Below, piece after piece: positions 21,286 to 62,524 of a DNA stretch of 64,000 nt. Source of the DNA: Cladopsammia gracilis (Eukaryota; Cnidaria; Anthozoa; Scleractinia; Dendrophylliidae); the NCBI GenBank assembly GCA_022457155.1, contig JAJGOT010000017.1, positions 2,817,501 through 2,881,500 of the forward strand, written 5' to 3'. The position numbers were made by a program, and so were the translations under genes. The first letter of the stretch is position 1; each line of letters opens with the position of its first letter. Below the pieces are notes generated by a model that had not been told where the DNA came from, did no database searches, and worked only from the letters and a program-made list of their open reading frames with translations.

Positions 21286-21549
21286 TCAAACGCTTTCACA
21301 GGTTTCCCCAAACTGTTGCAATTTCTTCATGAGCTGGTCGAACGCTGAATCATGAATCTTGCCACCTTCCTTGGCTACCCTGATATAAAGAAGCCTGGCG
21401 AAAATCAAGGAGAGCTGTCCCTTTGGAGGCCAGGGGATGTCTTCAAATAGTAAGGGGATAATGGGCTTCTTGAGGCAGTCAGCTAACGTTGCCTCGCGCT
21501 GACATGTGTCCGATTGAACGTATTTCTCCGTCACGCAACAGACGAACAC
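21286..21549 (-). CDS. Exon 17: TIR domain, second half, and stop
   Basis: Acceptor atcgcacag; phase 0; ends TGA at 21286-21288. VFVCCVTEKYVQSDTCQREA places a Glu (residue 1286) in the SxxCxxE position that is catalytic in NAD-cleaving TIRs, then KKPIIPLLFEDIPWPP. The TIR is the C-terminus of the protein. Confidence 0.88.
   Translation of the reverse strand: MFVCCVTEKYVQSDTCQREATLADCLKKPIIPLLFEDIPWPPKGQLSLIFARLLYIRVAKEGGKIHDSAFDQLMKKLQQFGETCESV

Positions 21550-62524: not shown

Follow-up and report, generated by a model that had tools for sequence, protein, structure and literature searches.

A coral gene of the NG3 kind that joins pseudokinase, SH3, Roc, COR, Death and TIR domains in one predicted protein

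By its domain description, the gene reported here is one more member of an immune-type family already known, the kind named 'Novel Gene 3' (NG3). On the minus strand of the window (the whole 64,000-nucleotide stretch of coral DNA that was analysed), 17 exons between 62561 and 21286 join in phase into a single frame of 1353 residues and a stop, and the domains follow one another as pseudokinase, SH3, Roc, COR, Death and TIR. The reading that we favour, at a probability of roughly 0.6, is that this is a multidomain Roco gene of the NG3 kind, about 1350 residues long, whose product would serve as a GTP-switched Death/TIR immune scaffold.

Gene structure and copies in the genome

To assemble the exons, the minus strand was read for splice signals and for frames running from stop to stop. 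All 17 have GT/AG ends and matching phases, the sole stop is terminal, and the 5' end of the model is open, the start lying outside the window. The original prediction had also described 17 minus-strand exons with GT/AG signals in one frame, and that description stands; its length of 1354 residues, counted from 62524, differs from that of the present model, which yields 1353 residues from 62561 and 1340 from 62524, so that at least one junction is not the same in the two models. We set the acceptor of the first exon at 62561 because it scores 5.5, as against -2.2 at 62524. The exons are as follows.

Exon 1 (of those seen), 62409..62561, minus strand: kinase N-lobe, glycine-rich loop region; ends in phase 0; identical, splice signals included, in the C981 copy
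Exon 2, 61023..61166, minus strand: kinase beta3 VCLR (VAIK in active kinases) and helix C with its Glu kept; Pfam match; present in the C981 copy
Exon 3, 58382..58555, minus strand: kinase from the hinge to the catalytic loop, with HQS at the HRD site; Pfam match
Exon 4, 56728..56777, minus strand: GLG at the DFG site; GLG in C981 too
Exon 5, 53430..53550, minus strand: short activation segment and kinase helix F; 30 of 40 residues match C343
Exon 6, 51725..51847, minus strand: end of the kinase C-lobe (CPSHFCKVFDRCLQVSPEARPSF); present in C981, C343 and C317b
Exon 7, 51201..51310, minus strand: first half of SH3; present in C981, C343 and C317b
Exon 8, 49266..49366, minus strand: second half of SH3; phase 1 donor joins the Roc exon; present in C981, C343 and C317b
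Exon 9, 46575..46957, minus strand: pre-Roc helix and Roc P-loop GQDRAGKTS
Exon 10, 33332..34137, minus strand: Roc, with WDFAGQ (G3) and GTNAD (G4)
Exon 11, 31454..31703, minus strand: COR-A; 88% identity in C343
Exon 12, 28927..29736, minus strand: remaining COR-A (Pfam, sub-threshold) and putative COR-B; present in five other copies
Exon 13, 26914..26950, minus strand: 12-residue linker of 37 nt, the weakest exon; seen in C981
Exon 14, 24897..25079, minus strand: Death, first part; Pfam Death; present in C981, C343, C317b, C995 and C317c
Exon 15, 23073..23210, minus strand: Death, second part
Exon 16, 22425..22639, minus strand: TIR, first part (FLSYQWD...CWMDIGEMGGGD)
Exon 17, 21286..21549, minus strand: TIR, second part, with the glutamate of SDTCQRE; stop TGA

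This chain was obtained by dynamic programming followed by hand correction, in which the segments 50240-50214, 43628-43570, 41060-40979, 37448-37435, 37030-37015 and 22993-22962 were dropped, exon 6 (51847-51725) was added, and two edges were moved (the end of the first exon to 62409, and the start of the TIR exon from 22562 to 22639). These edits predate the inspection of the other genomic copies, and the edited edges recur in the C981 copy. The best automatic in-phase chain, which has 22 exons and so differs from the corrected model, scored 311 on the minus strand and 37 on the opposite strand, while the best chain in 20 first-order random sequences scored at most 16; this control favours the minus strand and the finding itself because the codon scores were trained on exons of the same gene, and its splice matrices are approximate. 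The acceptors of exon 3 (-1.3) and exon 16 (-4.0) score poorly; the former is nevertheless present in C981 and C343, and the latter recurs in C981. The same edges and order in other genomic copies independently support the exon structure. The chain is more than chance, and the earlier observation of a gene at this place is confirmed.

Upstream of the gene, among 10 of the 46 open reading frames in the next 10.4 kb (minus strand, at least 45 amino acids), Pfam returned no match to a kinase, SAM or SH3 family, and nothing convincing as an N-terminal extension was seen in those 10. A match to an OTU-like cysteine protease just under its cut-off lies in the same direction from the gene (L042:4319-4633, minus strand).

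The gene sits on contig C317 of an 878 Mb genome. A search of this genome with the joined protein gave at least 37 matches (34 of 770 candidates scored): 2 from the window gene itself, 11 from five near copies, and 24, in 23 places, from Roc-COR frames that are 32-38% identical to this gene. Exon-by-exon inspection of the near copies covered nine loci and 13 additional stretches of up to 10 kb, and at least three of these copies carry kinase, SH3, Roc, Death and TIR exons, the count of full copies being a lower bound. Separately, Roc seems greatly expanded in this genome, with at least 151 matches on many contigs (150 of 591 candidates scored; exon pieces counted separately).

The copy on C981 retains 16 of the 17 exons with GT/AG at matching edges, and 97.0% of 1267 codons encode the same residue; its exon 10 is one codon shorter, and exon 11 falls in N, 5,000 of which occupy that intron. 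Because the introns too align, in collinear blocks at 87-98%, C981 is, as judged from the alignment, an allele or a recent duplicate. Its dN/dS of 0.42 (dS 0.031, dN 0.013) says little because there are few changes. Within this pair, kinase exons 3-5 (C981:1255910-1258818) differ at 9-29% of residues and exon 13 at 17%, and the other 12 compared exons are 97-100% identical.

A more distant paralog on C343 has 13 of the 17 exons in the same order over 27 kb, at 70% identity; exons 1, 2, 4 and 13 were not found within the stretches examined. Across these 13 exons, a counting-method script gave dS 1.06, dN 0.18 and dN/dS of about 0.17, a rough value because synonymous sites are almost saturated, with a pS that exceeds 0.75 in two exons. 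In every one of the 13, the kinase exons included, pS exceeds pN, and the comparison indicates purifying selection. At edges extrapolated from partial alignments, 9 of 12 acceptors have AG and 8 of 11 donors have GT, and most of the missing signals fall where the alignment ended short of the exon edge.

The remaining near copies were covered in part. C317b, on the same contig as the window gene and about 280 kb away, has exons 6-12 and 14-17 (exon 6 partial, at the end of the stretch), with exon 13 appearing only at E 0.35 and the stretch ending before exons 1-5; the part covered shows one kinase exon together with SH3, Roc, COR, Death and TIR. The full exon 17 there is immediately preceded by a partial second copy of its beginning, which spans residues 1266-1297 at 75% identity (C317:2537540-2537629, L051). 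C995 has exons 9-12, 14 and 15, with about 1 kb ahead of exon 9 covered, and the 7 kb downstream yielded no recognisable TIR; in C317c, exons 12 and 14 were seen in the short stretch covered. The exons seen of C981, C317b and C343 hold no in-frame stop. Stops flagged in the genome-search matches to C981, C317b and C995 lie outside the exons as aligned, and the flagged C981 match begins one codon early, on the acceptor TAG.

Domains, motifs and relation to known proteins

In the Pfam profile search that the original prediction had proposed as a check, the joined protein scored above the gathering cut-offs for PK_Tyr_Ser-Thr (PF07714, 3.1e-22, residues 36-169), SH3_2 (2.5e-8, residues 261-318), Roc (4e-15, in two stretches, the best at 533-579), Death (3e-9, residues 1114-1173) and TIR_2 (1.6e-19, residues 1215-1339). 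COR-A (7.1e-7, residues 720-874) reached 29.7 bits, below its cut-off of 35.3. Pkinase (PF00069) also matched, at 5.6e-14, and TIR (PF01582) stayed under its cut-off, the TIR of this protein being of the TIR_2 type. We presume COR-B to lie in exon 12 from its position and the usual Roco pattern; a single-sequence fold of this exon gave a pLDDT of 40.5 and was uninformative.

The kinase, Roc and TIR motifs are named as in the family literature. The kinase has VCLR for VAIK, HQS for HRD and GLG for DFG; the Glu of helix C is retained, and only a short segment separates the DFG site from helix F. As the VAIK Lys, the HRD Asp and the DFG Asp are all missing, the kinase is predicted to be dead. These losses are shared by all copies read, the window included (beta3 Lys 2 of 2, HRD Asp 3 of 3, DFG Asp 2 of 2), the HRD site reading HHS in C981 and HQS in C343. 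The Roc domain, which is followed in tandem by COR (COR-A below its cut-off) as in Roco proteins, has all its G motifs (GQDRAGKTS, WDFAGQ and GTNAD), and G1, G3 and G4 are retained in 5 of 5 copies read. The glutamate of SDTCQRE in the TIR domain is kept in 4 of 4. A single gene with these six domains in order, headed by a pseudokinase, had been proposed from the window beforehand, and the Pfam order within the one 17-exon frame and the three altered kinase motifs bear out these parts of the original prediction.

Searched one by one against the PDB, the kinase was led by RIPK1 and ABL1, and the SH3 had Pas20 and Vav among its best matches. Roc-COR matched bacterial Roco proteins and LRRK2; Death matched the TRADD Death domain best (1.4e-4), and other Death domains too; TIR matched bacterial TIR proteins, including AbTIR, and also Cat1 (best 6.2e-4). 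When kinase and SH3 were searched together, the top match was ACK1/TNK2 (PDB 4hzs), in which SH3 likewise directly follows the kinase. Descent of the kinase-SH3 head from ACK1 was not upheld by the single-domain searches: ACK1 is not among the best 60 of 922 PDB matches for the kinase alone or the best 60 of 88 for SH3 alone, and the kinase domain lies nearer to RIPK1 and ABL1. The likeness is a lead only.

Among familiar signalling proteins, MyD88 also has Death followed by TIR, but here the pair comes with other domains and the TIR is of the TIR_2 type; to our knowledge, MyD88 has no Roc-COR, kinase or SH3, and DAPK1 has neither SH3 nor TIR. DAPK1 does share an N-terminal kinase, Roc-COR and a C-terminal Death domain with the window protein; unlike it, DAPK1 is a serine/threonine kinase with ankyrin repeats (PMC6320773). 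The Roco-MyD88-like and TIR-COR proteins of Aplysia likewise combine Roc, COR and TIR in one chain, and one MyD88-like case (two according to the Discussion) has a Death-like domain; some carry LRR, MBT, EF-hand or NHR, whereas in the available text SH3 does not occur and no kinase domain is named for them (PMC9334734).

The closest counterpart is NG3, which was described by van der Burg et al. (2016, BMC Genomics 17:850) from the sea anemones A. pallida, C. polypus and N. vectensis and is credited in part to Poole and Weis 2014 (PMC5094078). NG3 has Pkinase_Tyr or Pkinase, Death and TIR/TIR_2, with Roc/COR and SH3 recognised by SMART; its longest protein has about 1,300 amino acids, and its dN/dS is 0.0943 (PMC5094078). 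The text places Roc/COR centrally and Death and TIR C-terminally, the order of kinase and SH3 being given in a figure (Fig. 2c), and its authors suggest that NG3 may act in TLR/IL-1R-like pathways via Death and TIR (PMC5094078). The window protein has the same kinase family match, SH3 and central Roc/COR (COR-A below its cut-off), the same Death-TIR C-terminus and a similar length, a likeness of description rather than of aligned sequence (PMC5094078). The original prediction knew of no named protein that joins a kinase fold and SH3 to Roc-COR-Death-TIR; this part of its interpretation is not supported, since NG3 has all of these domains, and NG3 is also a published protein of the kind that the prediction had named as telling against it, except that the main text does not give the kinase/SH3 order (PMC5094078). 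A never-described architecture is rejected, NG3 having been in print since 2016 (PMC5094078). Beyond that paper, the literature searched gave no second description of the set, which does not occur in the available text of PMC8195603, PMC6320773, PMC8260672 or PMC7075850.

Unlike the NG3 report on three sea anemones, the present case is a coral genomic locus with at least three further copies (PMC5094078). What it adds is the full gene anatomy in one more genome, the diagnosis of a pseudokinase and the finding that a single genome holds several copies; the main text of the NG3 paper uses neither 'pseudokinase' nor 'catalytic' (PMC5094078). From the published distribution of NG3, we infer a cnidarian origin of this kind of gene (PMC5094078).

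Proposed function and alternatives

Anatomy, motif states and conservation were read directly from the genome; the signalling role that we propose draws on the motifs and the families involved, so that each step, including the coupling of GTP switching to a Death/TIR output, is conditional. The kinase fold, which lacks the residues for phosphate transfer, would together with SH3 most likely act as a module that binds an upstream protein, either to sense it or to dock it. By binding and hydrolysing GTP, Roc, with a COR-driven rearrangement of the dimer, could then switch the exposure of the C-terminal Death-TIR part, and this part, once exposed, might recruit Death partners of the MyD88/TRADD/RIP type and TIR partners. 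The recruitment step resembles the suggestion made for NG3 by van der Burg et al. (PMC5094078). The domain list thereby becomes a testable model with the GTPase as the switch, the kinase as the scaffold and Death-TIR as the output. The kinase head no longer has the residues for catalysis, the GTPase motifs and the aligned glutamate of TIR are retained, and purifying selection is indicated against C343, the most diverged copy compared along its length.

Instead of an adaptor, the protein could be a GTP-gated cell-death effector whose C-terminal TIR is an NAD-cleaving enzyme, a reading that we consider possible but rather doubtful. The bacterial TIR 3h16 and Cat1 each have a glutamate aligned with that of SDTCQRE, and we take it to be the catalytic one of TIR NADases; a glutamate is thus found at the aligned catalytic place, where its role is a predicted one, and the solved relatives include the NAD+ hydrolase AbTIR. 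However, solved TIRs match only weakly (6.2e-4 at best), the AbTIR alignment ends before the glutamate, the BB-loop stretch is altered in the C343 paralog (CWMSSGEMRGDD), and where Cat1 has a tryptophan directly ahead of its cysteine (SDWC), the window protein has a threonine. Bolder still, and in our opinion unlikely, is the speculation that a small cnidarian family uses a dead kinase-SH3 head to gate, via an intact Roco GTPase switch, both an NAD-cleaving TIR and Death in one chain; it would be a self-contained, GTP-timed cell-death or immune switch that needs no separate receptor. Leaving aside the 12-codon exon 13, kinase exons 3 to 5 are its most diverged exons between two near copies.

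Our preferred scaffold reading presupposes one intact gene. Two adjacent genes, one for kinase-SH3 and one for Roc-COR-Death-TIR, might have been misjoined at exons 8 and 9, a junction predicted from genomic sequence; neighbours duplicated together could alone have spread the order to other contigs, and similar animal proteins do exist without kinase-SH3, having neuralized instead in centipede and oyster and neither in a less similar sea urchin protein (PMC5094078). Yet the AG and GT that bound exon 8, and the acceptor ahead of exon 9, stand at matching places in C981 and C343; past its donor at 49266, exon 8 runs into a stop near 49111; the likeness to bacterial Roco proteins sets in no more than four residues into exon 9, with no in-frame ATG before that point; and the NG3 described from three species combines kinase, Death and TIR (PMC5094078). 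Because the splice signals recur, the Roco similarity begins at the start of exon 9 and NG3 occurs in anemones, we regard a split between SH3 and Roc as very unlikely. Only slightly less unlikely is a decaying NG3 gene copy that has lost expression: several copies exist, C995 has no recognised TIR in the 7 kb downstream, and intron 9 of the window gene is about 11.7 kb longer than that of C981, but every one of the 17 exons in the window is open and bounded by GT/AG, and the comparison with C343 points to purifying selection.

Introns, repeats and probable mobile elements in the window

Intron 9 (34137-46575), which lies inside the Roc domain, measures 12.4 kb, compared with 0.7 kb in C981 and roughly 0.6 kb in C343; because both of these introns are short, the window copy seems to have gained about 11.7 kb. 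It contains a 32-base tandem array at 43888-44806 that gives several long plus-strand open frames. Intron 14 holds a 14-base minisatellite at 23491-24593, with about 77 copies of ACACTAAGGGGAGT and many overlapping matches in C981.

Pfam recognised a reverse transcriptase fragment at 1334-1789 on the plus strand (RVT_1, 3.2e-16) and, just under its cut-off, a GIY-YIG match in a minus-strand frame at 10169-11266; the plus-strand frames at 2664-3718 and 62804-63607 are similar to the latter by eye only. GIY-YIG is typical of Penelope-like elements. On the minus strand at 17365-18263, an integrase core (rve, 9.4e-5) lies near a phospholipase A2-like domain (3.5e-4), both below cut-off in Pfam, and the segment looks like a mobile element. 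A DEAD-box helicase fragment (Pfam, 4.4e-6) lies at 19790-20110 on the minus strand.
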